Assembly (NCBI GenBank): GCA_015489255.1
Contig: WGAD01000154.1
Coordinates: 1-12,572 of the forward strand
Reading direction: 5' to 3'
Length of the DNA stretch: 12,572 nt
DNA from: Anaerolineales bacterium
Lineage (GTDB): Bacteria; Chloroflexota; Anaerolineae; Anaerolineales; Villigracilaceae
The first letter of the stretch is position 1. Each line of letters begins with the position of its first letter. The notes below the pieces were generated by a model that saw only the letters and a program-made list of their open reading frames with translations, searched no databases and had not been told where the DNA came from. The translations under genes and the position numbers were made by a program. Of the stretch, positions 311-12,572 are shown in pieces.

Positions 311-1738
311 GTGTCATTGCTAAAACGTTTGGAGCAAGGACAAGGGGGGGCGGACAAGAAACCCGGCAGCGCTGGCGGATCAGCGACCGGCGGCGCTCGC
401 AGCGGCAGCAGCCGCCTGGGCGGTGTGCAGGCGCGGCGCGTGGACGCCCCGCAAGCGGGACCGCAGCGAGGTACCTATTTTGACCTCAAAACCCGCGTCC
501 AGAACCGCCTGCTGGCAGAACTGGACCCCTCCATGGACATCACCCAAACCGACGAGGTTCGCCGTACGATCTGGGCTTTGTTCGAACAGATCTTGCACGA
601 GGAAAACATCGTTCTTTCAAAGGTGGAACGTCAGCGTCTGTACGAACAAATCGCGGCAGAAATCCTGGGTTTTGGCCCCCTGGAGCCGTTGCTGCAAGAT
701 GAATCGGTAACAGAGATCATGGTCAATGGGGCCAAAAACATCTACGTAGAGCGCAGCGGCAAGATCTATCGGGTGCCCGTCTCCTTTGAGAGCGACGAGC
801 ATTTGATGCGCATTATCGAACGCATTGTGGCGCCTTTGGGACGCCGCATCGATGAATCCAGCCCCTATGTGGATGCCCGCTTGCCCGACGGCTCTCGTGT
901 GAATGCCGTCATCCCTCCGATTTCACTAGTTGGGCCGGTGCTGACCATCCGTAAATTTTCCAAAACGCCGATCACAGTCGAGCAGCTGGTGCAGTTTGGC
1001 TCTGTGACGAAAGAAGCGCTTGTCTTTTTGGACGCGTGCGTGAAAGCCCGTTTGAACATCGTCATTTCGGGCGGTACCGGTTCCGGTAAAACGACGCTGC
1101 TCAACATCCTGTCCAGTTTCATCCCTTCAGACGAGCGCATCATCACCATTGAAAACGCTGCCGAATTGCAATTGCGCCAAGATCACGTCGTGACCTTGGA
1201 GTCTCGGCCACCCAACATTGAAGGACGCGGTGAAATTACCATCCGGCAACTGGTGATCAATTCGTTGCGTATGCGTCCCGACCGCATTGTCGTCGGCGAG
1301 ATCCGCGATGAAGCCGCCTTGGACATGCTTCAGGCCATGAATACGGGCCATGATGGCTCTATGACGACGCTGCACTCGAACAGCCCGCGCGATACGCTTT
1401 CCCGTTTGGAAACGATGACCCTGATGGCTGGCATGGAACTGCCTTCGCGCGCGATTCGGGAGCAAATCGCTTCCGCTATCGACTTGGTGGTGCACCAGGA
1501 ACGTATGCGTGACGGCTCGCGTAAAGTGGTGTACATTACGGAAGTCAATGGCATGGAAGGGGACGTCATCACGACCACGGATCTGTTTGTCTTTGAGCAA
1601 ATTGGCATTGAGAACGGCAAGATCAAGGGGATGTTGCGGCCAACCGGTTTGCGGCCCAAGTTCATGGATCGAATTGAGGCCGCAGGCATTAAATTGCCGC
1701 CGTCCATCTTTGGCATTGGAGAACGTCGTCGCTACTAA
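311..1738 (+). CDS. tadA: Tad pilus motor ATPase TadA/CpaF
   Basis: This is the hexameric secretion ATPase that powers assembly (and in this family often retraction) of Tad/Flp pili at the cytoplasmic face of the inner membrane. The protein has 475 residues. Residues 1-55 form a Gly/Ser/Arg-rich, probably disordered leader, and an N-terminal helical domain follows to about 130. The RecA-like core has Walker A GGTGSGKTT at 254-262, an aspartate-box region TIENAAEL at 279-286 (Asn where many CpaF proteins have Asp), and Walker B ending in VVGEIRD at 327-333. Further motifs are AMNTGHDGS at 342-350 and a His-box TTLHSNSPRD at 352-361. The start is GTG at 311, with AAGGAG at 297-302 eight bases upstream. 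tadB begins 12 bases after the stop. A run of seven G lies at codons 12-14. Family assignment is secure. Whether the pilus serves adhesion, DNA uptake or motility is not visible here. Confidence 0.95.
   Translation: MSLLKRLEQGQGGADKKPGSAGGSATGGARSGSSRLGGVQARRVDAPQAGPQRGTYFDLKTRVQNRLLAELDPSMDITQTDEVRRTIWALFEQILHEENIVLSKVERQRLYEQIAAEILGFGPLEPLLQDESVTEIMVNGAKNIYVERSGKIYRVPVSFESDEHLMRIIERIVAPLGRRIDESSPYVDARLPDGSRVNAVIPPISLVGPVLTIRKFSKTPITVEQLVQFGSVTKEALVFLDACVKARLNIVISGGTGSGKTTLLNILSSFIPSDERIITIENAAELQLRQDHVVTLESRPPNIEGRGEITIRQLVINSLRMRPDRIVVGEIRDEAALDMLQAMNTGHDGSMTTLHSNSPRDTLSRLETMTLMAGMELPSRAIREQIASAIDLVVHQERMRDGSRKVVYITEVNGMEGDVITTTDLFVFEQIGIENGKIKGMLRPTGLRPKFMDRIEAAGIKLPPSIFGIGERRRY
344..350 (+). 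repeat. G7 homopolymer in the start of tadA
   Basis: Seven consecutive G bases fall in the codons for the Gly-Gly-Ala part of the disordered N-terminal leader of TadA. A one-base slip here would shift the frame before any conserved domain. The tract is short for a classic phase-variable switch, so this is only a site to note. Confidence 0.5.
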
Positions 1739-1750
1739 GGATAGGAGTTT

Positions 1751-2719
1751 ATGTCCGCAACCACCGTCTTGCTGATTGCAGGCATCCTGGTTTTGATTTT
1801 GTTGATCATCGGCCTGGTCACCTCGATTGCCAGCGAGCGCTCTCTTGTCGAAAATCGACTGGAGCGTTACCTGGTAGATGAGGATGAAATGGAGGAGGTG
1901 CGCAAACAGGCCGAGAAAAGCCTGGTGCGCGATTGGCTCAACCGCAATGTGGAACGAACCTCCATAGGCGAACGCCTGGCACGGGAATTGGCTCGCGCCG
2001 ATTTGAAATTCAAGGTGGGCGAATTCCTGATCCTGGTGTTTGGCATGGTTTTCCTGATGGGGTTCATTGCCTGGCTGGCGGGCGGGCGCGACATGATTTC
2101 CGCCGCCATCGGCATGGGCTTTGGTTTCTTCTTGCCAAACTGGTATATCAAACGCAAGCAACGGCAACGTTTACAACGCTTCAACGACCAACTATCAGAT
2201 ATGTTGAACCTGATGGTGAACGGTTTGCGCGCTGGCTATTCCACCATGCAGGCCATGGAGGCCGTGAGCCGCGAATTGCCACCTCCTATTAGCGATGAGT
2301 TTCGTCGTGTGGTGCAAGAAATGCAATTGGGCATCCCGATGGAACGCGCTTTGGACAACCTGCTGCGCCGCATCCCCAGTGAAGACCTGGATTTTGTGGT
2401 GACGGCCATCAATGTGCAGCGCGAAGTCGGCGGGAATTTGTCTGAAATTCTGGATACGATCTCCTATACCATTCGCGAACGTGTGCGTATCAAAGGCGAG
2501 ATTCGGGTGCTGACGGCCCAGGTGCGTACTTCCGGGCAGTTCATTTCGGCTTTGCCCTTTTTGCTCGTGCTGGTGCTGTGGTTTGTGAACCGCGACTATA
2601 TCATGACCTTTTTTGAACCGGAAAACCGTGTTTGTGGCTCGATCGCCCTGGGGGTAGCCTTTTTCTTGATCGTCACCGGGTACTTTGTCATGATGAAGAT
2701 TGCGGATATTGAGGTGTAA
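1751..2719 (+). CDS. tadB: Tad pilus inner-membrane platform protein TadB
   Basis: This is a type II secretion F-domain protein of the TadB type and one of two paralogous platform proteins that couple the TadA motor to the growing pilus. It has 322 residues. Hydrophobic segments lie at about 5-26, 91-110, 113-133, 262-280 and 296-316. The cytoplasmic F domain covers about 145-260 and includes LPPPISDEFRRVVQEMQLG (175-193), EDLDFVVTAINVQREVGGNL (211-230) and the following helix SEILDTIS, all characteristic of the family. AGGAG at 1743-1747 precedes the ATG. It is closely spaced between tadA (12-base gap) and tadC (2-base gap), so co-translation with its neighbours is likely. The order tadA-tadB-tadC and the second F-domain gene downstream distinguish it from a type II secretion GspF protein, which would be longer and single. 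Confidence 0.93.
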   Translation: MSATTVLLIAGILVLILLIIGLVTSIASERSLVENRLERYLVDEDEMEEVRKQAEKSLVRDWLNRNVERTSIGERLARELARADLKFKVGEFLILVFGMVFLMGFIAWLAGGRDMISAAIGMGFGFFLPNWYIKRKQRQRLQRFNDQLSDMLNLMVNGLRAGYSTMQAMEAVSRELPPPISDEFRRVVQEMQLGIPMERALDNLLRRIPSEDLDFVVTAINVQREVGGNLSEILDTISYTIRERVRIKGEIRVLTAQVRTSGQFISALPFLLVLVLWFVNRDYIMTFFEPENRVCGSIALGVAFFLIVTGYFVMMKIADIEV

Positions 2720-2721
2720 CC

Positions 2722-3675
2722 ATGTCAACCGCGCTGATCATCATCTTGGTTGTGGTTCTGATTATCGTTGTCATCGCTGTTTTGCTGGTTCGTGCCAGCA
2801 AAAGTTTGCCAGAAGATGATACCGATTTGATTTCCCAACGTTTGGCAGAATTTAGCGAACGAGGCGAACAGATTTCCTCTCTGGATGAAATCGAACTCTC
2901 GCAGCCTTTTAGCGAACGCGTTGTGTATCCGGCGTTGCGCAGCTTTGGCGAATGGGTGATGCGCTTCACACCACAGCGCGCCATGCAAAACGTGGAAGTG
3001 CAACTGGAGCGCGCCGGTATGGGCAATGTAGACGCCTCCATGTTTTTCGCCTTGCGGTTTGTGATGGCGTTTGTGCTGGGCGGGTTGCTGGCTTTCGTCT
3101 TTTGGGCTTCGCCCACGCCGCAGCCGGTAGGGCGTTCTGTGATGATTGTTTTGGGGGCCACAGTAATGGGCTTTTTGCTGCCGCAGATGTATGTCTCGAG
3201 CAAGATGCAACGACGGCAGCAAGAAATTCGCAAGGCCATGCCAGATGCACTGGACTTGCTTACGATTTGTGTAGAAGCGGGTTTGGGCTTTGATGCCGCC
3301 ATGGCCAAGGTGGCAGAAAAATGGGACAACGAATTGTCCTTGGCTTTTGGGCGCGTGATCCGCGAGATTCAACTGGGGAAAACGCGCCGCGATGCGCTCA
3401 AAGATATGGATGATCGCATCGGTTTGCCGGAAATGACGAGCTTTGTTGCTGCCATTATCCAGAGCGAGCAATTGGGTGTGAGTATGGCGAACGTGTTGCG
3501 TATTCAGTCCGAGCAAATGCGCGTGAAACGCCGCCAGCGAGCGGAAGAAGAAGCGCACAAGGCGCCGATTAAGATGATCTTGCCGATGGGATTGTTGATC
3601 TTTCCTTCTTTGTTGATCATCTTGTTGACACCGGCGGGTCTGATTTTTGTGGATTTGTTCAGCGGCTTCATGTAA
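2722..3675 (+). CDS. tadC: Tad pilus inner-membrane platform protein TadC
   Basis: This is the second F-domain platform protein of the Tad pilus and the partner of TadB. It has 317 residues. A strongly hydrophobic N-terminal anchor spans about 4-23. Further membrane segments lie at about 108-129, 136-156 and 285-303. The F domain is recognisable from PDALDLLTICVEAGLGFDAA (174-193), then REIQLGKTRRDALKDM (214-229) and FVAAIIQSEQLGVSMANVL (241-259), which is typical TadC. The tadB stop and this ATG are two bases apart. The likely ribosome site GAGGTG (2711-2716) lies inside the end of tadB, which implies translational coupling. No outer-membrane secretin, pilin or prepilin peptidase gene is in the window, so those parts of the Tad machine must be encoded upstream or elsewhere. 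Confidence 0.93.
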   Translation: MSTALIIILVVVLIIVVIAVLLVRASKSLPEDDTDLISQRLAEFSERGEQISSLDEIELSQPFSERVVYPALRSFGEWVMRFTPQRAMQNVEVQLERAGMGNVDASMFFALRFVMAFVLGGLLAFVFWASPTPQPVGRSVMIVLGATVMGFLLPQMYVSSKMQRRQQEIRKAMPDALDLLTICVEAGLGFDAAMAKVAEKWDNELSLAFGRVIREIQLGKTRRDALKDMDDRIGLPEMTSFVAAIIQSEQLGVSMANVLRIQSEQMRVKRRQRAEEEAHKAPIKMILPMGLLIFPSLLIILLTPAGLIFVDLFSGFM

Positions 3676-8494: not shown

Positions 8495-10483
8495 ATGATG
8501 AAATCCGAATCTTTACAAAACCAGGCCATCAATGCCATCCGTTTCTTGTCCGCTGACATGGTGCAGCAGGCCAACTCCGGCCACCCGGGCCTGCCGATGG
8601 GCGCCGCGGCGCTGGCCTTCACCGTTTGGACGCGCCATTTGCGCCATAACCCGGCCAACCCCTCCTGGCCCAACCGCGACCGCTTCATTCTCTCCGGCGG
8701 GCACGGCTCCGCCTTGCTCTACGCCTTGCTGCATCTGACCGGCTATGATTTACCGCTGGATGAACTCAAAAACTTTCGTCAGTGGGGCAGCCGCACTCCC
8801 GGTCACCCCGAATTTGGCCTGACGCCCGGCGTGGAAACCACCACTGGCCCACTGGGGCAGGGCTTCGCCAATGGCGTGGGCATGGCGCTGGCCGAAGCGC
8901 ATTTGGCGGCTGTTTTCAACCGCCCCGGGCATGCCATCGTCGATCACTACACCTATGCCATCGTCACCGACGGCGACCTGATGGAAGGCGTCTCTGCCGA
9001 GGCCGCCTCGCTGGCCGGTCACTGGCAGCTGGGGAAACTGATTTACCTTTACGACGACAACCGCATTTCCATTGAAGGCAGCACTGATGTGGCCTTCACC
9101 GAAGACCGCGCCCAACGTTTTGCAGCCTACGGCTGGCAGGTGCTGCACGTGGACGACGGCAACGATGTGGACGCGGTGGATGCCGCCATCCGCGCGGCCA
9201 AAGCCGACCCGCGCCCCTCGCTCATCGTGTGCCGCACGCACATTGGCTATGGCTTACCACACAAGCAAGATACCCCCAAAGCGCACGGCGAGCCGCCCGG
9301 AGACGAAGAACTGGCGGCGGCGAAAGAACAGGTCGGCTGGCCGGTGGAACCGCGCTTCTACATCCCCGACGACGTGCGTGACTTCTTCCACCAGGCGCTG
9401 CGCCGCGGCGCGGAACAGGAAGCGGACTGGCAGGCCCGTTTCGCGGCCTACCATCAGGCGTATCCTGATCTGGCAGCTGAGTTTGAACGTCGCCTGAAAG
9501 GCCAATTGCCCGCTGGCTGGGAAAAGAGCTTGCCGCGCTTCGAACCCGGCCTCTCGCTGGCCACCCGCGCCGCTTCGGGCAAGGTGCTCAACGCCATCGC
9601 CGCGGCGGTGCCGGATCTGGTCGGCGGTTCGGCGGACCTGGCGCCTTCCAACAAGACCTGGCTGAATGATTACCCGGCTTTTCAGAAAGACACGCCGCAA
9701 GGCCGCAACATCCATTTTGGCGTGCGCGAACACGGCATGGCCGCCATCGTCAACGGCATGGCCTATCACGGCGGCTTGCGGCCCTATGGCGCCACCTTCC
9801 TGGTTTTTTCCGATTACATGCGCGGCGCGCTGCGGGTGGCTTCACTCTCGCATTTGCCCGTCATCTGGGTGTTGACGCACGACAGCATCGGCGTCGGCGA
9901 AGACGGGCCGACGCATCAACCGGTGGAACACCTGGCCGCTTTGCGTGCCATCCCGAACCTGACGGTCATCCGCCCGGCGGACGCCAACGAAACCGCCGCC
10001 GCCTGGAAAGTGGCGCTCGAAAGCCGGGGTACGCCGACCGCGCTGGTGCTTTCGCGCCAGGGCCTGCCGGTGTTGCCTTTTGACGGGCTGCCGCCGGTGG
10101 AAAAGGGCGCCTATGTGCTGCGCGATGCCGACCGCACCCCCGATTTGATCTTGCTGGCCTCGGGTTCCGAAGTCTCCCTGACGCTTTCCGCCGCCGACGT
10201 TCTCACGGATGAGGGGCTGGCCGTGCGCGTGGTTTCCGTCCCCTCGCTGGATTTGTTCGCCGCCCAGGACAAAGCCTACCGTGAGCGCGTGCTGCCCACC
10301 GCAGTGACTGCCCGCCTGGCGATTGAAGCCGGCGTTTCACAGGGCTGGTGGCGCTGGGTCGGCTCGCGTGGCGACGTGCTCTCGATTGAACGCTACGGCG
10401 CTTCTGCGCCCGGCAAGATCGTCTTTGAAAAATTCGGCTTCACTGTGGAAAACGTGGTGCGTAAAGCAAAGGAGTTACTATGA
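8495..10483 (+). CDS. tkt: Transketolase
   Basis: It is a thiamine diphosphate and metal-dependent enzyme that moves two-carbon ketol units between sugar phosphates in the non-oxidative pentose phosphate pathway (cytoplasmic dimer). The protein has 662 residues, close to the 663 of E. coli TktA. His30 is in [19 protein letters not shown]-type residues are at 100-106. The cofactor motif starts TDGDLMEG (158-165) and ends DDNRISIEG. His264 sits in [26 protein letters not shown] (377-389) begins the middle domain, and the catalytic Glu412 is in [29 protein letters not shown] (463-476) carries the conserved His474. ATG at 8495 and 8498 are both possible; GAGAGAG at 8482-8488 serves either. The last four bases (ATGA) overlap rpiB. 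Codon choice is noticeably richer in C/G third positions than in the Tad genes. Confidence 0.97.
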
Positions 10484-10932
10484 AGATAGCAGTTGCCTGC
10501 GATCATGGCGGTTTTCCGCTCAAACAGACGGTTCTCGAAACCATTCGCGCCCTGGGACACGAACCGCTCGACCTGGGAACGGATAGCACCGCCAGCGTAG
10601 ATTACCCCGACTACGCCGAAAAACTGGGGCGCGCCATCCAGAGCGGGCAAGCCGAACGCGGCGTGCTGATGTGCGGCTCCGGCGTCGGCGCAAGCATCGC
10701 CGCTAACAAAATGAAAGGCGTCTATGCCGCCATCTGTCACGATACCTACTCGGCGCACCAAGGCGTAGAACACGACGACATGAACGTGCTCTGCATGGGC
10801 GCCCGTATCATCGGCCCCGAACTGGCCAAAGAAATCGTCGCTGCCTTCTTGCTGGCCCGCTTCCTTGGCAACGACCCGGGGCAAGAACGCCACGCCCGCC
10901 GGGTAAGTAAGGTTCGCAAATTAGAAAGTTAA
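10480..10932 (+). CDS. rpiB: Ribose-5-phosphate isomerase B
   Basis: It interconverts ribose 5-phosphate and ribulose 5-phosphate (LacA/RpiB family, cytoplasmic dimer), supplying substrate for the transketolase encoded just upstream. The protein has 150 residues. Visible features are the opening [13 protein letters not shown] with the Asp8-His9 pair, [11 protein letters not shown] (40-50), and the catalytic-cysteine loop [13 protein letters not shown] starting at Cys65. [20 protein letters not shown] (87-106) and a basic C-terminus with several Arg follow. Ser67 and the HDD in place of the more frequent HND are modest variations. AAAGGAG (10468-10474) is five bases before the ATG, which overlaps the tkt stop as ATGA. 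After its stop the coding strand has no G until 11005. Confidence 0.95.
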
Positions 10933-10945
10933 ATTTCCCACCCTC

Positions 10946-11005
10946 AACCTTCAACCACCCAACCTTCAACCACCCAACCTTCAACCACCCAACCTTCAAC
11001 CACAG
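10946..11005 (+). repeat. Left tandem array, 15-base unit, four copies
   Basis: Unit AACCTTCAACCACCC occurs perfectly at 10946-10960, 10961-10975 and 10976-10990. A fourth copy at 10991-11005 differs only in its last two bases and runs into the ribosome site of the next gene. It lies between rpiB and the four-helix-bundle gene. It shares the core AACCTnnAACC with the array on the other side of that gene (11422-11477). Confidence 0.95.
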
Positions 11006-11014
11006 GAGAACCCC

Positions 11015-11425
11015 ATGCCCACCGTCCGCCGTTTTGAAGACCTGGAAGCCTGGCAAACGGCACGTCGGCTGGCGCGGCTGGTATACCGCTTGACGGCCAA
11101 TGCCTCCTTTGCCCGCGACTTTGGCCTCAAAGACCAGATTCAACGGGCTGCCGTCTCGGTAATGAGCAACATCGCCGAAGGCTTTGAAAGCCTGCAAAAC
11201 ACCCAGTTTGTGCGCTACCTGGGATATGCCAAAGCCTCGGCTGGCGAAGTCCGCGCCCAACTGTACATCGCGCATGATTTGGGCTACATCACCGATGCCG
11301 AATTTGAAGAAGCCTTTGCCCTGGCCGAGCGCGTCTCTCGCCAACTGGCCTCCTTCATCTCCTACTTGAAAAACTCTCCCTACAAACACCGCCTCCGCGA
11401 AGACGAACCAGACTACAACCTTTAA
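11015..11425 (+). CDS. Four-helix-bundle protein (S23/Avd-like)
   Basis: This is a small helical protein of the family first known from intervening sequences in 23S rRNA genes and related to the Avd accessory protein of diversity-generating retroelements. The role of free-standing members is unknown. It has 136 residues, slightly longer than usual. Typical blocks are FEDLEAWQTARRLARLVYRL (6-25), then KDQIQRAAVSVMSNIAEGFE (40-59), AKASAGEVRAQLYIAHDLGY (70-89) and a last helix running to about 118, with a charged tail. AGGAG (11004-11008) is six bases before the ATG. The stop TAA (11423-11425) lies inside the first copy of the right repeat array. It interrupts the run tkt-rpiB-tal on the same strand and is flanked by repeats. 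No reverse transcriptase, template repeat or rRNA is nearby, so neither known context applies here. Confidence 0.88.
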   Translation: MPTVRRFEDLEAWQTARRLARLVYRLTANASFARDFGLKDQIQRAAVSVMSNIAEGFESLQNTQFVRYLGYAKASAGEVRAQLYIAHDLGYITDAEFEEAFALAERVSRQLASFISYLKNSPYKHRLREDEPDYNL

Positions 11426-11477
11426 ACCTGTAACCAACTTTAAACCTGTAACCTTAAACCTGTAACCTTAAACCTGG
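11422..11477 (+). repeat. Right tandem array, 14-base unit, about four copies
   Basis: Unit TTAAACCTGTAACC is perfect at 11422-11435, 11440-11453 and 11454-11467, with a 4-base spacer (AACT) after the first. A fourth partial copy, TTAAACCTGG (11468-11477), merges with the ribosome site GGAG (11476-11479) of tal. The first copy contains the stop codon of the four-helix-bundle gene. The arrays on the two sides of that gene share AACCTnnAACC but are not the same unit. Confidence 0.93.
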
Positions 11478-11483
11478 AGCCTC

Positions 11484-12572
11484 ATGAACCCCATCCCCAA
11501 ACTCACCTCCCTCGGCCAGTCCATCTGGTACGACAACATCGAACGCCGCCTGCTGGAAAACGGCGAACTGGCCGCCATGATTGCTCGTGGCGACATCCGC
11601 GGCGTAACCTCCAACCCCTCCATCTTCCAGAACGCCATTGCCAAATCGCACGATTACGATTCTGCGCTGGTGCCGCTGGCCTGGGCCGGCTGGACGCCCG
11701 AACCCATTTTCTGGCAGCTGGCCATCGAAGATATCCAGGCCGCCTGCGATCTTTTCCGCCCGCTCTACGACGAAACCGACGGCGGCGACGGCTACGTTTC
11801 GCTCGAAGTCAGCCCCTACCTGGCCTATAAGACCGAAGAGACCGTCCGGCAGGCCGCCGAACTCTGGGAGCGCGTCAACCGCCCCAACCTGATGATCAAA
11901 ATCCCGGCCACCGAAGCCGGTTTGCCCGCCATCCGTCAGGCGCTGGCACGGGGTATCAACGTCAACGTCACGCTGATTTTTTCCATTGAGCGCTACCGCG
12001 CCGTGATGGACGCCTACCTGTCCGGCCTGGAAGACCGCCTGGCCGCCGGTCACGATATTCGTCGCCTGGCCTCGGTGGCCTCGTTCTTCGTCTCCCGCAT
12101 GGATTCCAAAGTGGATCCCCGCCTGCCCGCCGGGTCGCCGCTGCGCGGCAAAGTCGCCATTGCCAACGCCAAACTGGCCTACCAGGCTTATCTGGAAGTC
12201 TTTGGCGGGGAACGTTTCGCCCGTCTCAAAGCGCAGGGCGCGCGCATCCAGCGGCCGCTGTGGGCTTCCACCAGCACCAAAAACCCGGCCTATCCCGATA
12301 CCCTCTACGTGGACGAACTGATCGGCCCCGATACCGTCAACACTGTGCCGCCCAAGACCCTGGCGGCCTTCAAAGACCACGGCACGGCCCGCCAGACCCT
12401 CACCGCCGGCGTGGACGAAGCCCGGCAGGTGCTCGCCAACCTGGCCGCTGTCGGGATTTCGCTGGATGAAGTCACCCGTGAGCTGGAAGAAGAAGGCGTT
12501 CAGAAGTTCGCCGATGCCTTCACCGCTTTGCTGGAGACCATCGACCAGCACCGCCGCGAAGCGGTGGATGCC
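11484..12572 (+). CDS. tal: Transaldolase, 5' part (possibly fused to glucose-6-phosphate isomerase)
   Basis: It transfers a dihydroxyacetone unit between sugar phosphates through a lysine Schiff base, linking the pentose phosphate pathway to glycolysis. The frame is open from the ATG at 11484 to the window end (363 codons, no stop). Visible blocks are [15 protein letters not shown] (9-23), [44 protein letters not shown] with Schiff-base Lys139, [30 protein letters not shown], and [20 protein letters not shown] followed by [11 protein letters not shown]. These are typical of the long (plant/actinobacterial type) transaldolases. GGAG lies four bases before the ATG. The transaldolase domain is essentially complete at the edge, where a stand-alone enzyme would be about to end. 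Fused Tal-Pgi proteins exist in some bacteria, so the downstream end needs to be seen. Confidence 0.95.

Follow-up and report, generated by a model that had tools for sequence, protein, structure and literature searches.

How a small gene of the S23 family came to lie between rpiB and tal, framed by two short tandem arrays, is the question raised by the DNA of an Anaerolineales bacterium analyzed here (12,572 nucleotides; this whole stretch is called the window). In the window, tkt, rpiB, a 136-aa S23-family gene, and tal follow one another in this order and in the same direction. The features of the locus are as follows.

10480..10932, + strand: rpiB, the upstream neighbor (PF02502)
10911..10932, + strand: 3' end of rpiB with AAGGTT and AAAGTT, a possible remnant of a GGTT arm (by-eye comparison with L118, L125, L309, and L316)
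10945..11003, no strand: left array of CAACCTTCAACCACC units, 3.9 copies, each unit 7+8 bases (Tandem Repeats Finder, 100% match)
11004..11008, + strand: AGGAG, the likely ribosome site of the S23-family gene (read from the sequence)
11015..11425, + strand: S23-family four-helix-bundle gene, 136 aa (profiles; dN/dS 0.14 against the orthologue L316)
11421..11476, no strand: right array, heptads TTAAACC/TGTAACC, including the stop codon at 11423-11425 (Tandem Repeats Finder for 11436-11476; sequence reading for the first, imperfect copy)
11484..12572, + strand: tal, the downstream neighbor, which runs off the window (PF00923)

The protein encoded by the small gene matched PF05635 at 2.7e-34 (118 bits, cut-off 33.8 bits) and TIGR02436 at 9e-32 (109.5 bits, cut-off 24 bits), and with both scores above the curated cut-offs it is a member of the S23 / 23S_rRNA_IVP family. 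The neighbors rpiB and tal were also identified by profile, and the original prediction of a tkt-rpiB-tal order interrupted by one small S23-like gene was correct. The 15-base and 14-base arrays that it described on the two sides were recovered by Tandem Repeats Finder, with period 15, 3.9 copies, 100% match, and a score of 118 at 10945-11003, and period 14, 2.9 copies, 96% match, and a score of 75 at 11436-11476, to which sequence reading added an imperfect copy at about 11421-11435. The 15-mer consists of 7+8 bases and the 14-mer of 7+7 bases, with an AACC core common to both, and AACCNNNAACCNNNAACC occurred four times in the 2.2-Mb genome of the window, three of them within the right array (0 in the control reading). 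The arrays also run into the ribosome sites as had been proposed: the left array leads into the AGGAG ahead of the S23 gene, and the right array, which contains the S23 stop codon, leads into GGAG at 11476-11479 before tal. Unusually for this family, both arrays of the window point the same way (inverted score 7.0; direct score 11.0, just short of the direct threshold of 11.5), and there was no stem in the window, the left array being unpaired in the fold. Elsewhere in the window, positions 311-3675 presumably encode a CpaF/TadA-type ATPase and two TadB/C-like membrane proteins, as judged from the translations.

The S23 family was present in 52 of 61 related genomes, that of the window included, with up to 22 copies per genome. 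The flanks of its members were compared in three sets: 32 copies from relatives, 80 named loci from many phyla chosen by record title (the best 80 of 568 confirmed), and 42 further loci, including two from an earlier sample and one, L284, that duplicates L035 and was dropped from joint counts. Three of the 80 named loci and three of 30 Y1 control loci were left out for short flanks, and the joint set of 150 S23 loci comprised 32 from relatives, 77 named (from the best 80 of 568), and 41 further. The third S23 match of the window's genome (L003), which is sub-threshold and has no arms, is included in the counts. Period-7 chains of a 4-mer were found upstream in 16/32 and downstream in 20/32 loci of relatives, in 46/79 and 35/78 named loci (best 80 of 568), and in 19/42 and 18/42 loci of the third set. 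Random segments of the relatives' and named loci, drawn from the loci at large, coding and spacer alike, had such chains in 3.1% of 2168 cases and chains of other periods in at most 1.9%. When the upstream flank was compared with the reverse-complemented downstream flank, a threshold of 13, set at the 99th percentile of the 1301 cross-locus comparisons in the first two sets, was passed in 22/32 relatives, 53/77 named loci (best 80 of 568), and 30/42 loci of the third set (29/41 without the repeated L284), that is, inverted arms occurred in 104 of the 150 loci, the named part being the best 80 of 568. Among cross pairs of the third set, 69/1722 passed, orthologues among them. The direct comparison passed its own threshold in 3/32 relatives and 9/77 named loci (best 80 of 568). 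The arm units are of 7 bases, some of 8, with a sequence specific to the locus, and in the orthologue L118 the frame lies in the loop of inverted arms with a score of 39.5.

Such flanks were rare at control genes. PIN genes of the same genomes had period-7 flanks in 0/30 cases upstream and 1/30 downstream and inverted flanks in 0/30, and Y1_Tnp genes of the same genomes had period-7 flanks in 0/27 and 2/27 cases and inverted flanks in 5/27, the latter being GC-rich by eye rather than heptads. The direct-repeat threshold was passed by 6/27 Y1 genes, compared with 3/32 S23 genes of relatives and 0/30 PIN genes. Among 473 other frames of the named loci (best 80 of 568), inverted flanks were found at 9, and a period-7 flank was found upstream of 38 and downstream of 44. 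That gene and repeats belong together, as originally proposed, was upheld. The check proposed with it, whether AACC-rich arrays flank members at unrelated loci, came out positive for the presence of repeats but not for a shared AACC sequence, the heptads being locus-specific and usually inverted.

The region upstream of tal was read in 30 genomes, that of the window included. Five carried S23 together with arrays (the window itself as L117, and L118, L124, L125, and L127), four a gene-less heptad hairpin by eye (L130, L131, L136, and L139, of which L136 had another upstream gene), two half an array (L123 and L133), and eight a short clean spacer (L121, L126, L135, L140, L141, L143, L145, and L146); the other eleven were arranged differently upstream of tal. 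G006 and G015 likewise carry S23 at the rpiB-tal junction (L309 and L316). In L118, L125, L309, L316, and L288, the last of which corresponds in place to L127, the order was GGTT arm, AACC array, gene, and second AACC array, whereas the window retains the AACC arrays only and lacks the GGTT arm of its relatives. The window is a decayed case of an arm-framed S23 locus, and the AAGGTT and AAAGTT at the rpiB end may be what remains of the GGTT arm. The window gene is a resident S23-family gene of the class in which a frame lies between two arms of locus-specific heptad repeats.

The clean gene-less junction that had been foreseen for relatives was found in the eight short spacers, and two close pairs gave near-empty sites: G036 with the gene versus G017 clean and G030 with a hairpin versus G008 clean. 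The genes of these pairs were 79-89% identical and the spacer was wholly different; no target duplication was visible in the two pairs, the whole spacer having been exchanged. The S23 proteins of the junction, the window aside, were 77-89% identical. Their dN/dS was 0.03, 0.04, and 0.06 in three pairs (window aside) and 0.14 between the window and L316 of G015, the only unsaturated one of six window pairs; of the 21 pairs in all, the remaining 17 had saturated dS. The S23 protein is under purifying selection in the unsaturated pairs. From these identities, the low dN/dS, and the near-empty sites, the gene seems to be old at this junction and selected, and the absence of S23 in some close relatives seems to reflect loss rather than fresh insertion. 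On the Tal tree, the gene state needed four changes, at least three of them forced, and on this tree alone recombination of the region is a possible reading.

Heptad arrays were also found away from S23 genes. Across 1.2 Mb surrounding S23 loci, arrays with period 7 and at least four units numbered 90 within 200 nt of S23 and 99 farther away, and other periods gave 1-14 arrays far from S23. Sampling of three S23-positive genomes placed 54 of 60 strong arrays at distances above 400 nt from all S23 genes and remnants. With background included, 36 of 142 arrays of at least three units in the three samples were paired with an inverted array no more than 1.5 kb away, and for 14 of these the loop measured 0-42 nt; gene-less hairpins therefore exist, but a hairpin nature holds for a minority of arrays as detected. 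Period-7 chains of three and four units numbered 28 and 7 in 340 kb of G004, which has 22 S23 copies, and 3 and 0 in 400 kb of G048, which has no S23; the four-unit counts are the fairer ones, since periods 6, 9, and 12 yield as many three-unit chains as period 7 (coding signal). At 1956-2334 of L214, a heptad hairpin encloses a short S23-like remnant (63-aa frame) between two apparent ABC transporter genes.

The association was examined across 301 genomes of one phylum, Chloroflexota (92 S23-positive, 209 S23-negative), by counting one 4-unit heptad pattern and its reversal, itself a heptad pattern, with genomes of at least 20 matches called array-rich; arrays with other cores were missed by this count, as it is built on a single pattern. 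S23 was present in 54 of 58 array-rich genomes versus 38 of 243 others, an odds ratio of 73, and fewer than 20 matches were found in 205/209 S23-negative and also in 38/92 S23-positive genomes. A permutation within families, covering the 104 genomes of the 16 families in which S23 is present in some members and absent from others, gave p 0.0002, the floor for 5000 shuffles. Gene-less heptad arrays are abundant chiefly in S23-holding genomes. The original prediction had named a wide occurrence of repeats without the gene as fatal to its cassette idea, and such repeats are indeed common; their being largely confined to S23-holding genomes is not what a refutation of this kind would predict.

Odds ratios for array richness were 73 for S23, 4.4 for Y1_Tnp, and 2.3 for RVT_1. 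A requirement for reverse transcriptase was rejected, with 23/40 S23-positive genomes without RVT_1 being array-rich as against 0/61 S23-negative genomes with RVT_1, and so was dependence on a Y1 transposase (16/32 S23-positive genomes without Y1 array-rich; 2/61 S23-negative genomes with Y1). In REP/RAYT systems, numerous short hairpins between genes are linked to a single gene family, that of the RAYT (Y1) transposases. The present case differs in that Y1 genes were rarely heptad-flanked (0 and 2 of 27), that their association with arrays was weaker (4.4 versus 73), and that the arms are locus-specific, unlike one conserved REP palindrome. No Y1 gene is adjacent to the S23 gene of the window, the sole Y1 match of its genome lying on another contig (C294).

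In ten further loci with 11 S23 genes, 6 genes were without inverted arms. Among seven S23-positive but array-poor genomes, four had inverted arms at S23 (G154, G161, G195, and G256) and three did not, namely G139 (three copies), G124 (direct G-rich repeats), and G127; of two array-rich genomes, G128 had inverted arms at S23 and G121 direct ones only. The three S23 copies of G139 (L324 and L325), two of them adjacent, are without heptad arms in similar GC-rich surroundings and are perhaps a different element type.

To account for these findings, we tentatively favor, as a reading that may well prove wrong, a trans action of S23 on fold-back DNA that would favor 7-base slippage and strand switching. 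The S23 protein, a relative of which is a homopentameric ring according to PMC4990558, would act on fold-back DNA at replication or repair and allow the polymerase to slip by about 7 bases and to switch strands. Slippage and strand switching would lengthen the arrays and copy one arm from the other; gene-less arrays and hairpins would be products of S23, and the gene itself would persist in the loop of one of them. At the window, the GGTT arm would have been lost and the remaining AACC arms re-expanded as direct repeats. Alternatively, S23 could be dependent on arrays made by something else. Counting against the favored reading are the missing stem of the window, the minority of sampled arrays with a detected inverted partner (36 of 142), the arrays of G275, which has no S23 match, the lack of correlation between S23 copy number and array count, the 6 of 11 S23 genes in ten further loci that are without inverted arms, the strand bias of the arms, and the S23 protein of Coxiella, judged to be decaying. 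A wider form of the proposal, which we regard as rather doubtful, is that S23 proteins are the trans-acting part of a chromosome-wide repeat maker that turns small DNA fold-backs into long, locus-specific heptad arrays and hairpins in intergenic regions and even coding linkers, the rRNA intervening sequences being the same system caught in rRNA genes.

It is unlikely, in our estimate, that S23 genes are passengers, kept or inserted only at heptad hairpins that a host process makes. A passenger would explain why no dose relation was seen, S23 copy number and array count being uncorrelated (rho 0.11, p 0.54) in the 34 of 92 S23-positive genomes compared, a non-random choice, and it fits the gene-less hairpins and clean junctions at the same site. 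It also fits G275 (77% complete), which has arrays, with two inverted pairs by eye among 8 strong arrays, and no S23 match. The near absence of arrays from S23-negative genomes (205/209 with fewer than 20 matches) and the purifying selection on S23 in the unsaturated pairs argue against it.

The median aligned length of the arms was 32 nt, and they ended about 30 nt before the start codon and resumed about 7 nt after the stop codon. The self-identity of the 5' arm was 0.58 at lag 7, 0.50 at lag 14, 0.36 at lag 8, and 0.21-0.32 at other lags, and its match with the partner arm was 0.82 in the best register, which as a maximum is biased upward, and 0.57-0.60 when slid by 7. Of the 104 loci, 88 had a G-rich 5' arm, 14 a C-rich one, and 2 a neutral one, and both neighbors were co-directional in 102 of 132 judgeable loci. 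If RNA pairing maintained the arms, G-U mismatches should exceed A-C mismatches; in the 104 loci there were 123 of G-U type and 120 of A-C type, with more G-U in 33 loci, more A-C in 40, and equal numbers in 31, and a laxer alignment likewise gave no G-U excess (355 G-U, 364 A-C). This lack of preference suggested that arm complementarity is made on DNA rather than selected in RNA. Inverted heptad pairs were also seen by eye in the coding linker of an apparent dihydrolipoamide acyltransferase (E2) gene downstream of S23 in L008 and L012, and more weakly in L017, and L031 had by eye a single heptad array inside another coding frame. Together, the lack of G-U excess and the heptads in coding linkers speak for a DNA-level process. 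The strand bias of the arms is unaccounted for by a plain DNA mechanism and could point to transcription-linked single strands. At 2130-2254 of L008, and also in L012 and L017, the heptads come after the first E2 domain and apparently shape a low-complexity linker.

The RNA-level precedent is the intervening sequence of 23S rRNA. As described in PMC4990558, an rRNA insert of Coxiella burnetii has three tandem heptamers before the S23 frame, their number varying among strains, with the frame in the loop of a stem and the insert excised by RNase III. The same paper gives helices 9, 25, and 45 of 23S rRNA as the commonest insert sites, mentions older proposals of mobility for the rRNA insert, describes the S23 structure from Xanthomonas as homopentameric, and leaves open the function of the S23 protein and the origin of rRNA intervening sequences. 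In its judgment the Coxiella S23 protein is decaying and probably not produced in vivo; this argues against S23 being active in that organism and differs from the purifying selection seen here in the judged pairs. Two homologous solved chains are 2gsc and 2rld.

The loci studied here resemble the insert presented in PMC4990558 in having an S23 frame, upstream tandem heptamers, and a frame in a stem loop; they differ in that S23 has protein-coding operon genes as neighbors, the arms are locus-specific, and gene-less arrays occur genome-wide. The heptamers upstream of the frame are matched in the window by a 15-mer of 7+8 bases, heptads in part. The S23 locus of the window sits between rpiB and tal and not in an rRNA gene, and it is without the stem of an intervening sequence, a feature that 104 of the 150 S23 loci have. 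None of the retrieved S23 loci contained a 14-base motif of 23S rRNA used to look for an rRNA location. We consider it improbable that these loci are RNA-level elements of this kind, in which the transcript arms pair, RNase III cuts out the S23 frame, and pairing keeps the arms complementary. The Coxiella precedent (PMC4990558), the co-directional neighbors, and the G-rich 5' arms favor such an element, but it is weakened by the G-U count, in total and per locus, and by the inverted heptads inside coding linkers.

The heptads themselves turned over at fixed sites. Related S23 genes at orthologous junctions may have wholly different heptads, each locus being self-complementary, as in L299 versus L312, L027 versus L301, and L289 and L303 versus L311. 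In 42 pairs with S23 proteins at least 55% identical, the arm score was higher within the locus than across loci in 27 (mean 18.1 versus 14.2), and in the 15 others the arms were mostly still alike or the own scores low. Both arms can be replaced together over time at orthologous sites. Such turnover, and the wide differences among heptads of different loci in one genome (L285, L289, L290, and L296 of G004), make it quite improbable that S23 is a nucleic-acid-binding regulator that binds to the arrays, with the arms at its own gene serving autoregulation, despite the presence of arrays at S23 genes as well as at other places in these genomes and a heptad seemingly preferred, by eye, in some genomes (G002, L058).

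Most S23 copies seem to have been in place for long instead of moving about: among 16 groups sharing a downstream neighbor, 12 had at least one S23 protein pair with 55% identity or more (all pairs 30-91%), and 27 of 30 S23 copies from three genomes were closer to a copy of another genome than to any compared copy of their own, although the pool from other genomes was larger and two genomes were represented by 13/22 and 8/14 copies only. Transposon-type constant terminal repeats were absent, arms matching within a locus and rarely across loci (1% of 1301 pairs, as the threshold itself defines, and 69/1722 pairs). The transposable cassette of gene and repeats entering between genes, as first envisaged, is very improbable, for although the gene is present or absent at one junction in close relatives with the spacer exchanged cleanly, and L035 has a different S23 subfamily (30-33% identical) at the same downstream and a shared upstream gene as L008, L012, and L017, there is no constant terminal sequence, no target duplication in the two pairs compared, and a set of orthologous S23 genes at shared junctions across genera, while repeats are common without the gene; a cassette with fixed ends was rejected on the locus-specific arms.

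Intergenic heptamer arrays have been described before. PMC4679880 reports arrays of TAACTGA and other heptamers, many before start codons and patchy over phyla, with 169 sets of direct repeats and one indirect; they are intergenic tandem heptamers as here, but described as direct repeats. Its text makes no use of the terms 'S23', 'four helix', or 'intervening'. In the open-licence literature, no report linking S23 or four-helix-bundle genes to heptads or inverted repeats was found. Avd of diversity-generating retroelements, which the original prediction had also invoked, is a distant relative by profile: bAvd matched the window protein at 0.011 and the L035 protein at 1.3e-12, and unlike Avd the window protein scored below the bAvd cut-off (16.6 versus 40 bits). 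RVT_1 had 0 matches in the window's own genome (86% complete).

These results strongly link one unexplained protein family, S23, with rRNA intervening sequences and bacterial heptamer arrays, and the tight genomic link between S23 and locus-specific heptads offers a common cause both for S23 function and the origin of the rRNA inserts and for the heptamer arrays. If S23 does make the arrays, repeats would be generated by copying local sequence and not by a fixed element, and such a repeat-making system may explain the inserts known from rRNA genes.

Very long heptad arrays were seen in L078 (14758-15001), L102 (9893-10105), and the downstream flank of L093, with 4-mer chains of 11, 19, 27, and 21 units, in records of Pseudoalteromonas, a planctomycete, and Grimontia; these are perhaps recent expansions. 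The genome of the window holds a second S23 gene, L002 (G000:C68:689-4003), amid apparent type I restriction-modification genes by eye, with AATGG / CCATTAT heptads on either side and an inverted score of 33.5.
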